Assembly: GCA_028282725.1 (NCBI GenBank)
Contig: JANQHF010000101.1
Coordinates: 31,700-95,699, forward strand
Origin: Saprospiraceae bacterium
GTDB lineage: Bacteria; Bacteroidota; Bacteroidia; Chitinophagales; Saprospiraceae
Direction: 5' to 3'
DNA: 64,000 nt
Positions 25,837 to 32,409 of this stretch are shown piece by piece. The stretch's first letter is position 1. Every line of letters starts with the position of its first letter. Position numbers and translations under genes: made by a program. The notes below the pieces were generated by a model. That model had not been told where the DNA came from. It was given only the letters and a program-made list of their open reading frames with translations, and did not search any database.

Positions 25837-26292
25837 TTAACCTTCGATTTGGACAGCATCTGTTAAAAGATACATCAACCGGTTGATATCATCTGCATTC
25901 AGGTTCAGTTTTCCTTTAAGCACAACCTGCTCTGCTGTATACTCGACTGCTTCAGAGCTCTCCACCTCCATTACGGTTTCAGGACCAGCACCACCACAGA
26001 AGAAGCACATATTATATGGATAGGCAGAAAAAATGAACTCGTTATGACTCTTGTACCCCTCAACTGGGATGATATAACCCCTTACCACCACTTCTGTACC
26101 TTCTAATTCTCTTACTTGATCTGCAAAAACAGGTTTATCTATTTTAAAACCTAAAAACTCGTCATACTCTTTTTTATAGGTGATTTTGGAAAGAGTCTTC
26201 CAGACGTTTTCATCTGTTTCAGCTTCAATTTCCTGGCTCCAAAGAGGTAGTGTAAACAACAGCAAAGCCAATATTCCAAATAGTTGCTTCAT
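25837..26292 (-). CDS. Secreted protein of unknown function with a CxxC motif
   Basis: About 151 residues, starting at the ATG at 26292 because a clean signal peptide begins there (MKQLFGILALLLFTLPLWSQ). The mature part has VVVRGYIIPVEGY and a CFFCGGAGPETVMEV motif with a CxxC that could bind metal or form a disulfide. Similar short secreted proteins are seen in Bacteroidota; I do not recognise a characterised family. A TAACTTTG box at 26325-26332 on the same strand may be its promoter element. Confidence 0.72.
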   Translation of the reverse strand: MKQLFGILALLLFTLPLWSQEIEAETDENVWKTLSKITYKKEYDEFLGFKIDKPVFADQVRELEGTEVVVRGYIIPVEGYKSHNEFIFSAYPYNMCFFCGGAGPETVMEVESSEAVEYTAEQVVLKGKLNLNADDINRLMYLLTDAVQIEG

Positions 26293-26468
26293 ACTAGTCT
26301 GTTCATAATTTCGAGTAAAGCGCACAAAGTTACAACAATAAGAATTTTAGTCTGGGTTTCGAAAATCCCTGTGGTAAAGATTAATTAACATCTCTATAAA
26401 CGGATTGATGACATAATTGACAGGGAAGTGACTTTTAAAAGACATTAAACAAATTTTAAGAGTTTTCA

Positions 26469-26500
26469 CTTGTATAGTTAGAGGATGAAATATACATTTG
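26469..26500 (+). promoter_or_regulatory. Candidate promoter of the sulfate-reduction leader
   Basis: CTTG (26469-26472; one mismatch to TTTG), a 20-base spacer and TACATTTG (26493-26500). The spacing equals that of the strong promoter at 5015-5046. It would start RNA near 26505-26509, downstream of the first ATG of leader frame 1 (26485) but upstream of the ATG at 26530, which would then be the real start of a 9-residue leader, MCCCCCCSC. Confidence 0.55.
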
Positions 26501-26559
26501 ATCCTGTGAAAAATCGAAATAGAAATATCATGTGCTGTTGCTGCTGTTGTAGCTGCTAG
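26485..26559 (+). CDS. Cysteine-rich leader peptide 1 (24 aa, or 9 aa from the internal ATG)
   Basis: A short frame ending in ATG TGC TGT TGC TGC TGT TGT AGC TGC TAG, that is MCCCCCCSC: seven cysteines in the last eight residues. The full frame from 26485 is 24 codons; from the internal ATG at 26530 it is 9. It lies in the gap before the sulfite reductase gene and is followed 34 bases later by an intrinsic terminator. By analogy with Trp, His and Leu leaders, and with cysteine-rich upstream frames reported in mycobacteria, translation through the Cys run should report Cys-tRNA charging. The peptide itself is probably not the functional product. Confidence 0.85.
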   Translation: MKYTFDPVKNRNRNIMCCCCCCSC

Positions 26560-26627
26560 GTGCTTCGATAAGTTCTATGTAAAATATTTATGGCCTTTTC
26601 GAAGTGAATTTCGAAAAGGTTTTTTTT
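26533..26627 (+). promoter_or_regulatory. Attenuator 1: Cys codon run, antiterminator and terminator
   Basis: Cys codons occupy 26533-26556 and the stop 26557-26559. The segment 26561-26568 (TGCTTCGA) can pair with 26599-26606 (TCGAAGTG; 6 Watson-Crick plus 2 wobble pairs), which takes away part of the terminator's 5' arm. A ribosome stalled on early Cys codons leaves 26561-26568 free, so the antiterminator can form and transcription continues. A ribosome reaching the stop codon covers it, so the terminator forms. The pairing is read by eye; energies were not computed. Confidence 0.7.
26594..26627 (+). terminator. Leader terminator 1
   Basis: A perfect 10-base stem, CCTTTTCGAA (26594-26603) with TTCGAAAAGG (26610-26619), then eight T residues (26620-26627). 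Directly downstream is a second leader and not a structural gene, so it is conditional and not a gene-end terminator. Confidence 0.9.
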
Positions 26628-26640
26628 GTTTTAAAGAGAT

Positions 26641-26745
26641 ATGATTCAGGAATACATCAGGAATTTTTCTATGCGTAACCAAGGTGCAAATACAACATGT
26701 ATGTGTTGTTGTTGCTGCTATTACGCTAGAAGAGGAATATCTTGA
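26641..26745 (+). CDS. Cysteine-rich leader peptide 2 (34 aa)
   Basis: A 34-codon frame with internal ATGs at 26671 and 26701. Its core is TGT ATG TGT TGT TGT TGC TGC TAT TAC, giving CMCCCCCYY (six Cys in seven residues), then ARRGIS and TGA. It starts 13 bases after the T-run of terminator 1 and no promoter-like box was found between them, so it probably lies on RNA that has read through the first terminator. Codon choice mixes TGT and TGC, arguing against a simple DNA triplet repeat. Both leaders share the M-C-run design but little else, so they are not a recent copy of one another. Confidence 0.83.
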   Translation: MIQEYIRNFSMRNQGANTTCMCCCCCYYARRGIS

Positions 26746-26805
26746 TGGAGATAAATTAAGAGAATAAGTAGGCTCATCGGGATATTCCCGATGGGCTTTT
26801 TTTTT
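26698..26805 (+). promoter_or_regulatory. Attenuator 2: Cys codon run, weaker antiterminator and terminator
   Basis: Cys codons lie at 26698-26700 and 26704-26718, stop at 26743-26745. Segment 26741-26748 (CTTGATGG) can pair with 26774-26781 (TCATCGGG; 5 Watson-Crick and 3 G-T pairs), competing with the terminator's 5' arm. The segment spans the stop codon, so a ribosome finishing the leader would mask it and one stalled on Cys codons would not. The logic is the same as in attenuator 1 but the pairing is weaker, so another fold may be used. Confidence 0.6.
26772..26805 (+). terminator. Leader terminator 2, immediately before the sulfite reductase gene
   Basis: Stem GCTCATCGGG (26772-26781) with CCCGATGGGC (26787-26796; one G-T pair), loop ATATT, then nine T residues (26797-26805). 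It ends 18 bases before the sulfite reductase ATG at 26824, so it must be read through for operon expression. Confidence 0.9.
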
Positions 26806-26823: not shown

Positions 26824-28962
26824 ATGGAAGCAATAACAGACAATGAACATATTGCCTTAGCCGATAAGGTTGATATTCTCGAATTGGAAGAGCGAATTAA
26901 AAAATTCAGGGAAGGACTGATTGATGAGGAGAGATTCAAGCTCTATCGGTTGACCAGAGGAGTTTATGGACAACGGCAATTAGGAGTACAAATGTTTCGG
27001 ATCAAGATTCCATTTGGAAGGTTGAATAGCGAACAATTAATTCGAATTGCAGATGTTTCAGACAAATATGCAACAGGCAACTTGCACATAACGACCCGAC
27101 AAGATATTCAACTTCACTATGTGAAATTAGAAGACTCCTCTGAAGTCTGGAAAGAACTGGCCGCCAAAAAAATCACTGCAAGAGAGGCATGCGGGAATAC
27201 GGTTAGGAATGTTACTGCTTCAGCTGAGGCCGGAATTGATCCACATGAGCCATTTGATGTATCTCCTTATGCACATGCTGTGGCACACTACTTCATGCGC
27301 AATCCGATTTGCCAGGAAATGGGAAGAAAAATAAAAATTTCATTTTCTTCAAGTGAAAAAGATTCTGCGCTCTCCTTTATTCATGACTTTGGATTCATTC
27401 CAAAAATCAATAAAGGTCAAAGAGGGTTTAAAATTCTTGTTGGAGGTGGTTTGGGCGCACAGGCTATGTTGGCCCGGACGGCTTATGAGTTTTTACCTGA
27501 AAAGGAAATAATTGCTTTTTTGGAAGCTGCACTCAGAATCTTTGACAGGTACGGAGAACGTGAAAAACGACACAAAGCGAGGTTGAAATTTCTAATTAAA
27601 AAAATTGGCCTCGATGCTTTTCTAAAATTGGTCTCAGATGAAAAACAAGGTCTATCGCCCGAATCCTTTCAAATTTCAATTACAGATCTTTCTGATGCAC
27701 CTCCTCCGGAAATATTTCAACCTGAAGTTGATGAAGTCAAAAATGTTGACAAATATCGGACATGGTTAAAGACCAACACCTTTGTACAAAAACAAAGTAA
27801 TTATAGAGGAGTATACATTAAAGTTCACTTAGGTGATCTGTCTTCGGAAAAGGCCAGATACCTGGCAAGGATTGTCAGGAAATATGCCTCCGATGACATT
27901 CGACTTTCCATCAATCAAAACATTCTCCTGAAATACATCCGTCCTGAATATCTTCCAGAGCTATTTACTGTTCTCGACGGCTATGGCTTTGCTCAGCCCG
28001 GATATGATTCAATTGCGGACATTACGGCTTGTCCCGGAACAGATACCTGTAATCTCGGTGTCACCAATAGTACAGCCTTGTCGACTGAGCTCGAGCGGCT
28101 ACTTGAAAACGAATATTCATCACTTCTGGAAGAGCAACATATAAAGATCAAGATCAGTGGATGCATGAATGCCTGCGGACAGCACATGATCGGCAATATT
28201 GGATTTCACGGAAGTTCTATAAAGAAAAATGACAAGGTGATACCCGCCATGCAGGTCGTACTTGGTGGCGGCGTTGATCCTCAGGGACATGGATACATAG
28301 CAGATAAAATCCTTAAAGTCCCTACGAAGCGAATTCCGGATGTGGTCAGAACATTACTTGATCATTTTGAAAAGGAAGGATTTGAAAATGAATATTTCAA
28401 TAATTTCTACACAAGGCTCGGGGGTCGGAAATACTTTTATAATCTGCTCAAAATTTATACTGATGTAGATTCACTCAAAGAATCCGATCTCATAGATTGG
28501 GGGGAGGATCATTTGTACAACCAGCAGATAGGTGTAGGAGAATGTGCGGGTGTAATACTCGATGTCATTGGTACAATCATCAATGATGCCAAAGAGAAAT
28601 TAGAAAAAGCTCAGAAAGAATTACAGAATCTGTCAAGCGGGGCCGCTATCTATTATGCATATTCCTCATTCGTAACCGGGGCAAAAGCTGCTTTACTCAG
28701 TGAAGATATTCACTGCAATACTCATATCAAGATCATATCTGATTTCCAGGAATATATTCTGGAAGCTGGAAAAATGAGTTTGCCGTACAATTTTCAACAA
28801 CTGGTATTATCGATTAATACAAGTCCCCCTGATCAACGATTTGCAGAGATTTATACAAAAGAGGCTGAGCAGTTCTTACAAACTGTCATTAACTGGAGAA
28901 ACCAGCAACAGGCTCCGGAGAACCTTTCCAAACCTGTCATTACAAGTTATTACAATGCATAG
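26824..28962 (+). CDS. Sulfite reductase, sirohaem/[4Fe-4S] hemoprotein with C-terminal HEPN-like domain
   Basis: About 712 residues. The nitrite/sulfite reductase fold is seen twice (two NiR-like halves with TGNLHITTRQDIQLHYV and ASDDIRLSINQNILLKYI). The sirohaem-[4Fe-4S] cysteines are Cys403, Cys409 (TACPGTDTCNLGV), Cys447 and Cys451 (SGCMNACGQHMIGN). The ~130 C-terminal residues (YYAYSSFVTGAKAALL) look like a HEPN-type helical domain found in Bacteroidota homologues. It reduces sulfite to sulfide with electrons probably from the ferredoxin encoded downstream. The frame extends to an ATG at 26791, but that ATG lies in the terminator stem, so 26824 is preferred. A nitrite reductase role cannot be excluded by motifs alone; the neighbours favour sulfite. 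Confidence 0.9.
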   Translation: MEAITDNEHIALADKVDILELEERIKKFREGLIDEERFKLYRLTRGVYGQRQLGVQMFRIKIPFGRLNSEQLIRIADVSDKYATGNLHITTRQDIQLHYVKLEDSSEVWKELAAKKITAREACGNTVRNVTASAEAGIDPHEPFDVSPYAHAVAHYFMRNPICQEMGRKIKISFSSSEKDSALSFIHDFGFIPKINKGQRGFKILVGGGLGAQAMLARTAYEFLPEKEIIAFLEAALRIFDRYGEREKRHKARLKFLIKKIGLDAFLKLVSDEKQGLSPESFQISITDLSDAPPPEIFQPEVDEVKNVDKYRTWLKTNTFVQKQSNYRGVYIKVHLGDLSSEKARYLARIVRKYASDDIRLSINQNILLKYIRPEYLPELFTVLDGYGFAQPGYDSIADITACPGTDTCNLGVTNSTALSTELERLLENEYSSLLEEQHIKIKISGCMNACGQHMIGNIGFHGSSIKKNDKVIPAMQVVLGGGVDPQGHGYIADKILKVPTKRIPDVVRTLLDHFEKEGFENEYFNNFYTRLGGRKYFYNLLKIYTDVDSLKESDLIDWGEDHLYNQQIGVGECAGVILDVIGTIINDAKEKLEKAQKELQNLSSGAAIYYAYSSFVTGAKAALLSEDIHCNTHIKIISDFQEYILEAGKMSLPYNFQQLVLSINTSPPDQRFAEIYTKEAEQFLQTVINWRNQQQAPENLSKPVITSYYNA

Positions 28963-29719
28963 ATCAAAAGACTTTACAGTTTCACTTGTCGGAGCAGGAC
29001 CAGGCGATCCGGAACTTATTACCCTTAAGGGTTTAAAGGCTATTCAATCAGCTGATGTAATCTTATATGACGCCCTGGCAACGAAAGAATTGCTTTCTAA
29101 AGCCCGGGAGGGCTGTGAATGCATCTATGTGGGAAAACGCTGTGGCCGGCATAGTCTTAAACAACAGGACATACACGCATTGATACTCCAAAAGTCAAAG
29201 ACACACCATCACTTGGTACGGCTCAAGGGAGGAAATCCATTTGTATTCGGAAGAGGTCATGAAGAAATGACTTTTCTCGAAAACAATGGTATTACAGTTA
29301 CAGTCATTCCCGGGATAAGCAGTGCGACCAGCTTGCCCTTGTTGCAGGGAATTCCTTTGACAAAACGAGACGTCTCGGAAAGTTTTTGGGTGATCACCGG
29401 AACGACTAAAGATCATAAAATTTCGAAAGACATCTACCTCGCCGCACAGTCCAGAGCAACTGTTGTCATCCTGATGGGAATGAGGAAGTTAGAAGAAATT
29501 TGCCAGATATTTCAATCAGGAGGCAGGGCAGCTATTCCTGCCATGGTCATCAGCAAAGGTTCTACACCGGAAGAAAAAGTTGCCGTTGGCACCGTCCGGG
29601 ATATTTATAAAAAGGTTCAAGAGTTACAATTAGAATCTCCCGGTCTGATTATAATCGGAGACGTTGTGGGACTTAAGAAAAAATCACTCATCAATCAGGC
29701 AATAGAAACATGGCTATGA
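28955..29719 (+). CDS. cobA: Uroporphyrinogen-III C-methyltransferase
   Basis: Adds two methyl groups to uroporphyrinogen III to make precorrin-2, the first step to sirohaem, the cofactor of the sulfite reductase. 254 residues with VSLVGAGPGDPELITLKGL, VILYDALATKELL, YVGKRCGRHSLKQ, VRLKGGNPFVFGRG and TVIPGISSATSLPLLQGIPLTKR. The ATG at 28955 overlaps the sulfite reductase end by 8 bases; a longer frame further upstream lies inside that gene and is not used. The overlap indicates coupled translation. Confidence 0.95.
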   Translation: MHRSKDFTVSLVGAGPGDPELITLKGLKAIQSADVILYDALATKELLSKAREGCECIYVGKRCGRHSLKQQDIHALILQKSKTHHHLVRLKGGNPFVFGRGHEEMTFLENNGITVTVIPGISSATSLPLLQGIPLTKRDVSESFWVITGTTKDHKISKDIYLAAQSRATVVILMGMRKLEEICQIFQSGGRAAIPAMVISKGSTPEEKVAVGTVRDIYKKVQELQLESPGLIIIGDVVGLKKKSLINQAIETWL

Positions 29720-30303
29720 CCCAAGATCAAAATAATCTCTATCCCGTATTTTTAAAACTCTGCAACTTGAAATTGCTCATCGTTGGTGCAGGAAATGTAG
29801 GATTTGAAAAATTGTCATTTCTTCTGAAGAGTAGTCCGGATGCCAATATTTCAGTCATTGCCAAGAACTTTTCAGACCAGGTACAGAATCTCATTGCTGA
29901 TAACGATCGGATAGAAATTATTGAAAAGGCATTCACATCCACTGACGTCATTGGGCATGATATCATCATTGCCGCAACAAATAATGAAGATGTAAATGCA
30001 GAAATCTATGCTGCAGCCAAGCATCACAATAAAGTTGTAAATGTCGCTGACACTCCTCATTTATGTGACTTCTATATGGGATCCATCATTACCAGGGGAG
30101 ATCTAAAGATAGCGATTTCGACAAATGGAAAGTCCCCAACATTTTCTAAAAGATTCAGACAATTATTGGAATCCATTTTGCCTGTCGAATCCCACAGTCT
30201 CGTGAATAATTTGAAACTGATCAGGGATCGGCTCGAGGGAAATTTTGAATACAAGGTGAAGGAATTGAACCGTATCACAAAAACGCTTCTTACATATGAA
30301 TGA
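29710..30303 (+). CDS. Precorrin-2 dehydrogenase / sirohydrochlorin ferrochelatase
   Basis: A 197-residue CysG-N/Met8-like enzyme that oxidises precorrin-2 with NAD and inserts iron, finishing sirohaem. It has the Rossmann motif LLIVGAGNVGFEKLSFLL, the conserved NVADTPHLCDFYMGSIITRGDLKIAISTNGKSPT region (Asp in the first part is catalytic in Met8) and a helical end. It overlaps cobA by 10 bases and cysH by 8. Together with cobA it replaces the fused CysG of enterobacteria. Confidence 0.94.
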   Translation: MAMTQDQNNLYPVFLKLCNLKLLIVGAGNVGFEKLSFLLKSSPDANISVIAKNFSDQVQNLIADNDRIEIIEKAFTSTDVIGHDIIIAATNNEDVNAEIYAAAKHHNKVVNVADTPHLCDFYMGSIITRGDLKIAISTNGKSPTFSKRFRQLLESILPVESHSLVNNLKLIRDRLEGNFEYKVKELNRITKTLLTYE

Positions 30304-30973
30304 TCGAGAAATCATAGAACTGAATTATGAGTATAAATTATTGAGTCCGATGAAACGATTAGAAAAGTTGTTTACAGAGTTTGATCATAATGACATTCTC
30401 GTAACTTCTTCGTTTGGCACCACGTCAGGTATCCTAATGGGCATGGTCAGCATGGTTGCCCCCGGGCATCCCATTCATTTTATAGATACATCATTCTGTT
30501 TTAACAAGACCATCGATTATAAAAAGACGCTCACTGACATTCTGGGATTGAGGATAATAAATGTTTTACCCGATATTGATGATAATCTTGAATCCCGTGA
30601 AAAACAAATGTGGAAGAAGGATCCGGATAAGTGCTGTTTTCTAAACAAAGTGAAACCCTTTGAACCATACAAAAAGAATAAAAAGTTTTGGGTTTCAGGA
30701 CTACTGATGAATTCCACGCCTTTCAGGCGCAATCTCGAAATTTTTGAAAGGAGAAATGGAATCGTCAAAATGCATCCGAACATAGATACCACTGCTGAAG
30801 GCTTTGCGAAATTCTTAAAGGACAACAATATTCCTCCCCACCCTTTATCGCTTGAGGGATATGGATCTGTAGGCTGCACACATTGCACAAATAAAGGGGA
30901 AGGCCGCTCCGGACGCTGGTCCGGAACTTCTAAAGCAGAATGTGGTTTACATACTGAAGTAAGGTCATTTTAA
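30296..30973 (+). CDS. cysH: Phosphoadenylyl/adenylyl-sulfate reductase (APS-type, [4Fe-4S])
   Basis: Reduces activated sulfate to sulfite with thioredoxin. 225 residues with the SSFGTTSG phosphate-binding loop and HFIDTSFCFNKTIDY. Four cysteines, Cys113-Cys114 and Cys194/Cys197, are the [4Fe-4S] pattern that marks enzymes using APS (and not only PAPS). The catalytic Cys216 sits in ECGLH. No cysD/cysN (ATP sulfurylase) is in the window. The next gene starts 23 bases later. Confidence 0.92.
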   Translation: MNDREIIELNYEYKLLSPMKRLEKLFTEFDHNDILVTSSFGTTSGILMGMVSMVAPGHPIHFIDTSFCFNKTIDYKKTLTDILGLRIINVLPDIDDNLESREKQMWKKDPDKCCFLNKVKPFEPYKKNKKFWVSGLLMNSTPFRRNLEIFERRNGIVKMHPNIDTTAEGFAKFLKDNNIPPHPLSLEGYGSVGCTHCTNKGEGRSGRWSGTSKAECGLHTEVRSF

Positions 30974-30996: not shown

Positions 30997-32007
30997 ATGA
31001 TTAAAACAGACATTTTAATAGTAGGTGCCGGGCCTGTAGGTCTCTTCACTGTCTTTGAGGCTGGTTTGCTAAAGTTGCGATGCCATCTTGTCGACGCCTT
31101 GCCGATTCCAGGAGGACAATTGGCAGAGATTTATCCCAAGAAGCCAATTTATGATATTCCGGGATACCCGAGTATCCTCGCCGGAGATCTGGTCGATAAT
31201 CTGATGAAACAGATCGAGCCTTTCCAACCTAAATTTACCCTGGGTGAACGTGTGGAGTCACTTGTCCAGGTTGAAGACAAGTTGTATGAAGTTCAGACCA
31301 ACAAAGGGACGAAGATACAGGCTCCTGTCATTGCCATAGCAGCTGGTCTTGGATGTTTCGAACCCCGAAAACCACCTATAGAAGATCTGGAAAAATATGA
31401 GGACAAGGGTGTTGATTACATTATAAAGGATCCCGAAAAATTCAGAGATAAAAAATTATTGATAGCAGGAGGAGGAGATTCTGCTTTGGACTGGACAATT
31501 GAATTGTCTGATATCGCTTCGGAAGTTACACTGATACACCGCCGGACATCCTTCAAAGGAGCCCTGGATTCAGTGGATAAAGTGCTCGAGCTTGCCAGGG
31601 CAAAAAAGGTAAACCTGATCACTGAGGCTCAGGCAATAGGAGTAGGCGGAAATGGGGTGCTCAGAGAAGTGAGGATCAAAAGCAAGCAAAATGGTGAGTT
31701 TATCCATTATGTGGATAATTTCATCCCCTTATTCGGTCTGTCACCGAAACTTGGCCCAATCGCAGAATGGGGTTTGAACATTAAACGAAGCTCTATCACA
31801 GTTGATCCATCGGACTATAGCACGGGAGTGCCGGGTATTTATGCGATCGGCGATATCAATGATTATCCTGGAAAATTAAAATTAATTCTGTGTGGATTCC
31901 ATGAAGGAACTTTAATGGTTCAATCTGCTTTTAAATACATATACCCTGAAGCTAAATTGAGTTTCAAGTATACTACGGTATCCGGAGTCAATGGTTTTGA
32001 GGATTGA
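30997..32007 (+). CDS. FAD/NAD(P)-dependent reductase (ferredoxin-NADP+ reductase, TrxR-like type)
   Basis: A 336-residue flavoprotein with FAD-binding ILIVGAGPVGLFTVFEAG, NAD(P)-binding LLIAGGGDSALDWTIELS and the late GIYAIGDINDYPGKLKLIL motif. It lacks the redox CxxC of thioredoxin reductase, which fits the ferredoxin/flavodoxin-NADP+ reductase type 2. With the ferredoxin gene that follows it can form an NADPH to ferredoxin to sulfite reductase electron chain. Confidence 0.88.
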   Translation: MIKTDILIVGAGPVGLFTVFEAGLLKLRCHLVDALPIPGGQLAEIYPKKPIYDIPGYPSILAGDLVDNLMKQIEPFQPKFTLGERVESLVQVEDKLYEVQTNKGTKIQAPVIAIAAGLGCFEPRKPPIEDLEKYEDKGVDYIIKDPEKFRDKKLLIAGGGDSALDWTIELSDIASEVTLIHRRTSFKGALDSVDKVLELARAKKVNLITEAQAIGVGGNGVLREVRIKSKQNGEFIHYVDNFIPLFGLSPKLGPIAEWGLNIKRSSITVDPSDYSTGVPGIYAIGDINDYPGKLKLILCGFHEGTLMVQSAFKYIYPEAKLSFKYTTVSGVNGFED

Positions 32008-32082
32008 AAAAGTTATTCAGATAAAGTTTTGAGAAAAGGCGGAGCATTTACCATGCTTCGCTTCTTTTATGAACATTGGATT

Positions 32083-32409
32083 ATGATAGACAATGAAATA
32101 CAGTTGACTGTGATTGACAGGGATGATAAAGAACATGTGATCAATGCCCCAACAGATATGAATCTGAATATCATGGAAATCTGCAAGGCTTCAGATTTGC
32201 CGATTGAAGGGACTTGTGGGGGAATGGCCTTATGCGCCTCCTGTCACGTCTATGTCCTCTCCGATCATGAATTGCAGCAGCCATCAGAAGATGAAGAGGA
32301 CATGCTAGATCAGGCATTCTTTGTCGAGCCAAACAGTAGATTGTGTTGTCAGATAAGAATTCAAGATCAAATTGACGGGATCAAAGTAAAGCTCGCTCCC
32401 GTCAGTTGA
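32083..32409 (+). CDS. [2Fe-2S] ferredoxin, adrenodoxin type
   Basis: 108 residues starting at the ATG at 32083; upstream codons look unrelated to the family. The cluster ligands are Cys45, Cys51, Cys54 (GTCGGMALCASCHVYV) and Cys88 or Cys89 (RLCCQI), the C-x5-C-x2-C spacing of the adrenodoxin/Fdx family. It probably donates electrons from the flavoprotein upstream to sulfite reductase, inferred from gene order. It ends the sulfate-reduction operon. Confidence 0.9.
   Translation: MIDNEIQLTVIDRDDKEHVINAPTDMNLNIMEICKASDLPIEGTCGGMALCASCHVYVLSDHELQQPSEDEEDMLDQAFFVEPNSRLCCQIRIQDQIDGIKVKLAPVS

Follow-up and report, generated by a model that had tools for sequence, protein, structure and literature searches.

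Does a leader carrying two runs of cysteine codons regulate the sulfate reduction genes that follow it in the Saprospiraceae, and if so, do both runs matter? The question arises from a stretch of 64,000 nucleotides from a Saprospiraceae bacterium (hereafter, the window), in which the divergent gap between a minus-strand gene (25837–26325) and the ATG of a sulfite reductase gene (26824) is the site of two Cys-run frames in series. Each frame is followed by a hairpin resembling an intrinsic terminator, and the whole arrangement (26506–26805) lies 5′ of the sulfite reductase operon. An initial annotation had described two Cys-codon frames, each with a terminator of 8 or 9 T residues; both are present, and the observation of two Cys-run leaders with terminators is real.

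Organization of the leader region

The leader comprises the following features.

26470–26500, plus strand: predicted promoter, with a −33 TTG at 26470–26472, a 20-nt spacer and a −7 element TACATTTG at 26493–26500
26506–26559, plus strand: leader peptide 1, with a GTG start, 17 residues (VKNRNRNIMCCCCCCSC) and a TAG stop codon at 26557–26559; predicted to be leaderless
26562–26575, plus strand: putative antiterminator segment of gate 1, whose core (26562–26568) pairs with the 5′ arm of terminator 1 (26599–26605)
26592–26627, plus strand: terminator 1, with its stem at 26592–26621 and a T tract up to 26627
26641–26745, plus strand: leader peptide 2, with a start at ATG 26641 (MIQEYIRNFSMRNQGANTTCMCCCCCYYARRGIS) and a TGA stop codon at 26743–26745
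26737–26748, plus strand: putative antiterminator segment of gate 2, which pairs with 26774–26785 and overlaps the end of leader 2
26770–26805, plus strand: terminator 2, with its stem at 26770–26798 and a T tract up to 26805

The Cys run of leader 1 consists of TGY codons (26533–26556) with one AGC inside, and the stop codon comes next. The run of leader 2 (26698–26718) reads TGT ATG TGT TGT TGT TGC TGC. The start of leader 2 is located 13 nt past the T tract of terminator 1, and an inner in-frame ATG at 26671 provides an alternative start. The first hairpin has a predicted energy of −14.3 kcal/mol and is followed by 8 T, while the second reaches −20.8 kcal/mol and is followed by 9 T. A terminator scan over 1701 bases returned three sites, compared to 0.7 in shuffled sequences, the third being on the opposite strand and elsewhere. 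Four consecutive TGY codons occur at 27 overlapping places in the 5.06 Mb genome, five of which are the two leader runs; no other leader with a terminator was seen when the remaining places were read by eye.

The genes that follow the leader are listed below.

26824–28962, plus strand: nitrite/sulfite reductase family protein (4Fe-4S), likely an assimilatory sulfite reductase (Pfam PF01077, PF03460)
28955–29719, plus strand: uroporphyrinogen-III C-methyltransferase, for siroheme (TIGR01469, above cut-off)
29710–30303, plus strand: N-terminal part of siroheme synthase, precorrin-2 dehydrogenase (TIGR01470, above cut-off)
30296–30973, plus strand: cysH, phosphoadenylyl-sulfate reductase (NF002537, above cut-off)
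30997–32007, plus strand: protein of the pyridine nucleotide-disulphide oxidoreductase family (PF07992), by inference perhaps a ferredoxin reductase
32029–32409, plus strand: 2Fe-2S ferredoxin (PF00111), with an uncertain start codon

Sulfite reductase family, siroheme and cysH genes are thus identified by Pfam and NCBIfam models, in agreement with the sulfate reduction operon that had been proposed downstream of the leaders. All matches of the NCBIfam sulfite reductase models to the first protein (26824–28962) are below cut-off, and the name sulfite reductase therefore depends on the Pfam assignment (NIR_SIR family) and on the operon neighbours.

Conservation of Cys frames upstream of sulfite reductase

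A set of 247 sulfite reductase loci was gathered and verified to be in frame, 80 of which are the best 80 of 569 relatives; after removal of 4 loci with less than 250 nt of upstream sequence and 23 duplicates, 220 were retained. The family set, drawn from the matches listed, excludes some seven genomes in which the gene is truncated or fragmentary, as well as weak matches to other reductases. Cys frames were sought within 800 nt upstream of the sulfite reductase gene, and were defined from stop to stop, with any start codon, at least four Cys in six residues and a length of at most 90 residues.

At least one Cys frame is found at 114 of the 220 distinct loci, compared to 4 on the antisense strand and 11/1100 in shuffled sequences. 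The frame is single at 63 loci, and two frames in series are present at 51. The tandem arrangement was seen at 0/220 loci in antisense and in 0/1100 shuffles, and this conservation excludes chance as the origin of the two frames in series. Since Leu-rich frames occur at 145 and Val-rich frames at 91 of the same loci (His, 0; Trp, 2; Tyr, 4), a tally based only on residue content lacks specificity.

The tandem is present in 22 of the 46 Saprospiraceae genera covered, while 16 have at most a single frame and 8 have none. By locus (123 in the family), 44 are tandem, 42 are single and 37 have no Cys frame; 18 of these 37 belong to one genus (g7), where they make up 18 of its 20 loci. Seven tandems are found beyond the Saprospiraceae list (L010, L087, L089, L218 from Marinoscillum furvescens, L219, L220 and L232). 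The class set comprised 28 loci plus 10 fetched by place, with about 50 lower-scoring places set aside, so that shares outside the Saprospiraceae are not class estimates. Closer to the window, the gene is present in two of the five genus mates searched, and both (L002 and L009) have both gates with their terminators. A quick FastTree tree of the 120 proteins that are long enough (27 with two frames, 29 with one, 64 with none) places the window in a clade of 10 rows, each of which has two frames. Separating the tandem from the rest on this tree requires at least 12 changes, and the tandem has accordingly been gained or lost several times.

Many sulfite reductase loci, including Chitinophaga and Spirosoma loci among L251–L283 and those of genus g7, have no Cys frame at the threshold used, and in some loci without such frames the nearest long frame lies several hundred bases upstream. 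Other control may act at these loci. Four Pontibacter loci (L238, L241, L257 and L282) contain a frame with a terminal Cys run and SC located ∼430–520 nt upstream, with the terminator absent in two and weak in two; SC also ends leader 1 of the window. Runs of six TGY codons were located at no fewer than 39 places in relatives (L315–L353). By eye, many of them fall within extended low-complexity DNA that lacks a terminator and may be the reverse strand of genes rich in repeats, and a bare TGY run is consequently a poor sign of a leader.

Predicted promoter and start of leader 1

The promoter of Flavobacterium johnsoniae is described, in the available text of the source, as TTTG/TANNTTTG (T-12 to G-5), with 4–5 nt from the element to the RNA start (PMC6847099). 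According to the same text, the −33 element is weak and 87% of transcripts have leaders of more than 10 nt, so that leaderless starts are the exception in that organism (PMC6847099). The window contains a predicted promoter of this Bacteroidota type, which would place the RNA start at 26505–26506; the transcript would then open directly with GTG 26506 as its first codon. Five nucleotides separate the −7 element from this GTG, and with the promoter ending at 26500 a leaderless mRNA is predicted for the window. The probable start of leader 1 is GTG 26506 rather than ATG 26485, the start chosen in the initial annotation, which was rejected as it falls inside the predicted promoter, between the −33 and −7 elements.

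Using a search pattern of TTG, 18–22 nt and at least five of the six positions of TAnnTTTG, a promoter element was found 5′ of leader 1 at 79 of the 110 loci with enough upstream sequence (shuffles, 15.0±3.0; antisense, 17). Perfect −7 elements are present at 30 loci, compared to 2.0 in shuffles and none in antisense. The first in-frame start lies within 8 nt past the promoter element in 17 of 78 loci, including the window and its near relatives L002, L009 and L054. Leaderless translation of leader 1 is thus predicted here, and is not general across the Saprospiraceae. Between the gates, a promoter element was found at 1 of the 51 tandem loci (the stretch searched has a median of 84 nt, compared to 140 nt before gate 1), which makes a single transcript likely.

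Predicted terminators and antiterminators

A hairpin with a T tract is located behind 148 of the 165 leaders and was not seen at the other 17. The corresponding counts are 63/165 in antisense and 20/165 in shuffled sequences, the high antisense control probably resulting from hairpin symmetry and A-rich DNA. Of the 51 tandems, 45 carry a terminator at each gate, and the median distance from stop codon to hairpin is 28 nt. The search of related genomes for short Cys frames followed by terminators, suggested in the initial annotation, thus returned frames at 114/220 loci and terminators behind most of the leaders, and the absence in close relatives that it had named as evidence against its reading did not occur, L002 and L009 having kept both gates.

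For the antiterminator, the stretch between Cys run and terminator, starting at the last Cys codon, was paired with the 5′ arm of the terminator and compared to dinucleotide shuffles; 143 leaders were used, leaving out the 17 without a terminator and 5 with a terminator outside 5–60 nt. The predicted duplex has a mean of −13.8 kcal/mol, compared to −8.6 kcal/mol in the shuffles. It reaches p≤0.05 in 91 of the 143 leaders (7 expected) and p≤0.01 in 37 (1.4 expected), counts that come from related loci and hence not from independent trials; 52 leaders miss the 0.05 level. By class, p≤0.05 is reached at 33/45 first gates, 28/49 second gates and 30/49 single gates. In the window, the duplex of gate 1 is −11.9 kcal/mol (p = 0.015, dinucleotide shuffles) and that of gate 2 is −13.2 kcal/mol (p = 0.01).

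The pairing segment begins 8–18 nt past the last Cys codon in 118 of the 143 leaders, compared to 24% in shuffles. Its position varies with a standard deviation of 4.4 nt when measured from the Cys run, 12.7 nt from the stop codon and 10.7 nt from the terminator. The fixed point is therefore formed by the Cys codons and not by the stop codon, as a halted ribosome would demand, and we consider this to be the strongest result.

The pairing is also specific to each gate. A 5′ arm paired with its own segment averages −13.8 kcal/mol, compared to −9.1 kcal/mol with the segments of other loci, and the own segment ranks in the top 5% for 54 leaders and in the top 25% for 116 of the 143. In 44 tandem loci, 88 comparisons were made between an arm's own segment and that of the sister gate, and the own segment is preferred in 70 (p = 2×10−11). 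In an alignment of nine sequences, 95% of the cells of the gate 1 helix are paired, with 8 double changes, a result matched by none of 500 shuffles; the number of double-changed pairs is 3, which is matched by 137/500. For the gate 2 helix (seven sequences), 87% of the pairing is kept, as reached by 27/500 shuffles, and the covariation score is reached by 20/500. Judged from these alignments, covariation appears weaker at gate 2 than at gate 1.

A fold model of the switch

Folding was modelled with RNAs cut at the terminator loop. With the ribosome placed in the middle of the Cys run, the probability of the antiterminator exceeds 0.5 in 140 of 143 leaders; with the ribosome at the stop codon, this is the case in 38. 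Switching is predicted in 102 of the 143 leaders and none in 41, including leader 1 of L002. Since 80% of shuffled segments also exceed a probability of 0.5, this threshold alone says little, and it was dropped as stand-alone evidence. A probability above 0.9 with the ribosome in mid-run is reached by 132/143 leaders, compared to 30% with shuffled segments. For the window, the model gives 0.99 (mid-run) and a borderline 0.49 (stop codon) at gate 1, and 1.00 and 0.39, respectively, at gate 2.

Once the whole hairpin is transcribed, the fold of lowest energy is the terminator in both ribosome states at both gates of the window, so the switch would depend on which helix forms first. Fold predictions for the ribosome-free leader RNA of the window, with a cut at each terminator loop, give the antiterminator, which suggests that the gates are open unless translated.

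Differences between the gates and methionine codons

Stop-to-stop segments of the 51 tandems contain 7.6 Cys codons at gate 2 compared to 6.2 at gate 1; gate 2 has more in 31 loci and gate 1 in 9 (p = 6.5×10−5). The window is an exception, with 6 Cys codons at gate 2 and 7 at gate 1. Terminator strength does not differ significantly between the gates (terminator 2 is stronger in 27 of 45 tandems, p = 0.07), and different Cys-tRNA thresholds of the two gates are accordingly a guess.

Among 100 genus-collapsed leaders, 42 have a Met within two residues before the Cys run; on the other side of the run the figure is 25 of 94. Leader tails would predict 6%. Start codons may explain part of the excess before the run, and not that after it. 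As sulfide feeds both Cys and Met, a joint Cys/Met sensor is possible. Mixed Met/Cys frames below the threshold are seen in L085, L198 (MMCCMMCA), L201 and L265, and occur twice in series in L085 and L198.

Proposed mechanism and alternative explanations

Each unit of the leader contains a Cys-run frame, a terminator and a putative antiterminator segment, mutually exclusive with it and well placed, as in an attenuator, and the two attenuator-like units are located behind one predicted promoter, as in a tandem attenuator. As far as the sequence can tell, the anatomy is that of ribosome-mediated transcription attenuation, doubled. We consider it highly probable that the leader works as a pair of serial transcription attenuators, both sensing cysteine tRNA and both carried by a single transcript. 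The attenuation by cysteine leader peptides put forward in the initial annotation is thereby supported by the operon, the terminators, the placement of the antiterminators, the gate-specific pairing and the promoter positions.

Transcription would begin at ∼26505, and the leaderless GTG would immediately receive a ribosome. With ample Cys-tRNA, the ribosome would reach the stop codon and cover the antiterminator segment, terminator 1 would form, and transcription would end near 26627. With scarce Cys-tRNA, it would stall on the Cys codons, such that the segment just past the edge of the ribosome could capture the 5′ arm and the polymerase would continue. The same test would be repeated at leader 2, whose start codon would be present in the RNA only after gate 1 had been passed. 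Full operon mRNA would be made only with both gates open, and repression should thus multiply. We lean slightly towards a fuller reading of the double gate, in which two complete sensors of the same charged tRNA, on a transcript with a leaderless start and with the second translatable only once the first has been passed, multiply repression and give a steeper response to cysteine, while the flanking Met codons make it a general sensor of sulfur amino acids.

It could be argued that a single gate matters, with the other being a decayed or redundant duplicate, so that the locus would amount to an ordinary single attenuator. The 63 loci with one Cys frame indicate that one gate can suffice, and the covariation of gate 2 is weaker in the nearest relatives. 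Such a duplicate is nevertheless unlikely, since terminators have been kept at both gates in 45/51 tandems, the Cys codons of gate 2 outnumber those of gate 1 more often than the reverse (31 versus 9 of the 51 tandems, p = 6.5×10−5), gate 2 has a matching putative antiterminator of its own (28/49 at p≤0.05; own over cross in 70/88 comparisons for both gates), and no row of the window's clade, out of 10 in the tree, has fewer than two gates. The hairpins themselves could be secondary if control were translational or Rho-dependent, a mode put forward for actinobacterial polycysteine leaders. Mycobacterial Cys leaders are described as being without conserved terminators, with Rho suggested, in the available text of one source (PMC1262725), and, in that of a review, these mycobacterial leaders act on the translation of genes downstream (PMC9031893); in our own set, no terminator was seen at the metY leader L339 or the cysH leader L324. 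A hairpin and T tract behind 148/165 leaders, an antiterminator mostly at a fixed distance from the Cys run, and the location of gate 1, no less than ∼200 nt upstream of the first gene and separated from it by another leader, render this mode of control very unlikely here.

Cys-rich peptides are capable of metal binding, and the frames could encode small working peptides that bind metal or sulfide, accompanied by ordinary terminators. By eye, the common feature of the leaders is the Cys run, in many cases with an adjacent Met, while the leader ends differ in both length and sequence and the antiterminator keeps an almost constant spacing from the run. Terminators that were active at all times in such a position would silence the operon, making a role for the peptides themselves highly improbable. 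A metabolite riboswitch would fit a long leader with two structured stretches, and SAM riboswitches are common in the Saprospiraceae (64/120 genomes). Against this, a scan of the window with gathering and relaxed Rfam thresholds returned nothing of weight: no family reaches its cut-off, and three sub-threshold matches fall far below theirs. A search of this genome for SAM aptamers with strict filters likewise found none, and we give control of the operon by a riboswitch scarcely any credence.

Relation to known systems

The trpL-type attenuators of Proteobacteria consist of a frame with codons for the end product, an antiterminator segment and an intrinsic terminator in front of a biosynthetic operon, and trpL has a protecting hairpin in addition. 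The frame, antiterminator, terminator and biosynthetic operon of trp/his-type attenuators are shared by the window, which differs in its Cys codons, Bacteroidota-type promoter, predicted leaderless start and two complete gates. The cut folds of the window are predicted to be in the antiterminator state without a ribosome, whereas trpL instead has its protecting hairpin.

Leaderless polycysteine short ORFs of mycobacteria were reportedly described by Canestrari et al. in 2020. They share with the window the Cys run, the leaderless start and the cysteine response, the latter two being only predicted here. Conserved terminator hairpins are absent from mycobacterial Cys leaders, as stated in the text available (PMC1262725), whereas the window has intrinsic terminators, putative antiterminators and two gates; given these terminators, we do not file it under the mycobacterial type of polycysteine uORF. 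The uORFC-8-2 motif, upstream of cysS in Rhodobacterales, resembles the window as a predicted cysteine leader with a terminator; as far as the source text at hand describes it, the motif differs in having two Cys codons, a tRNA synthetase gene and one gate, and in belonging to another phylum (PMC8632094). Two short-ORF attenuators in one leader are also known from Salmonella mgtCBR, where they sense ATP and proline and are called a ‘singular example’ in the portion of the paper available (PMC3641672). There the signals are different, whereas both frames of the window have Cys runs and the arrangement recurs in many genera. Within the same phylum, leader-peptide attenuation has been suggested for Flavobacterium psychrophilum and Bacteroides thetaiotaomicron, with neither a cysteine leader nor a tandem for one amino acid mentioned in the parts of these papers available (PMC9723704, PMC7366714).

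Among the literature matches listed, we found neither a cysteine leader attenuator of Bacteroidota nor a tandem of leader peptides for the same amino acid, which is weak evidence of absence and accords with the initial annotation, where neither was known. The mechanism itself is known; two serial gates reading the same amino acid, as predicted across 22 genera of a single family, look like a new arrangement as far as this literature shows.

The arrangement provides a proposed regulator for assimilatory sulfate reduction in this group of Bacteroidota. The 165 leaders at 114 loci form a natural series of variants of a transcription-translation switch, and serial gates of the same specificity allow a test of whether stacked attenuators multiply repression and sharpen the response. 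Bacteroidota are generally without Shine-Dalgarno sequences, according to the text available (PMC6847099), and the near-fixed distance between Cys run and antiterminator could serve as a ruler for ribosome position in a phylum mostly lacking them.

Other Cys leaders in relatives

SAM aptamers (RF00162; 73.5 and 75.7 bits) are located directly 5′ of a poly-Cys frame in L325 (340–536, plus strand) and L339 (4098–4202, minus strand). The aptamer and frame lie upstream of metY in both loci and, as verified for L325, of metX; these sites are predicted to combine two sulfur sensors of different kinds, one behind the other. A Cys frame behind a SAM aptamer is also seen in L367, L368, L369, L371, L374, L376 and L383. 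In a raw count of SAM aptamer loci in the Saprospiraceae, 8 of 30 have at least three Cys in five residues within 300 nt behind the aptamer, at a distance of 77–103 nt in seven of the eight and 295 nt in L380.

Single Cys frames were also found before other genes. They precede a peroxiredoxin gene with a cysM-like cysteine synthase gene behind it (L316, 420–780), cysH-cysD (L324, 380–700, with no terminator found), a 141-residue protein followed by a MoeB/ThiF-like protein (L335, minus strand), and a 347-residue protein (L319, 420–680). Their positions point to a wider putative Cys-leader regulon.
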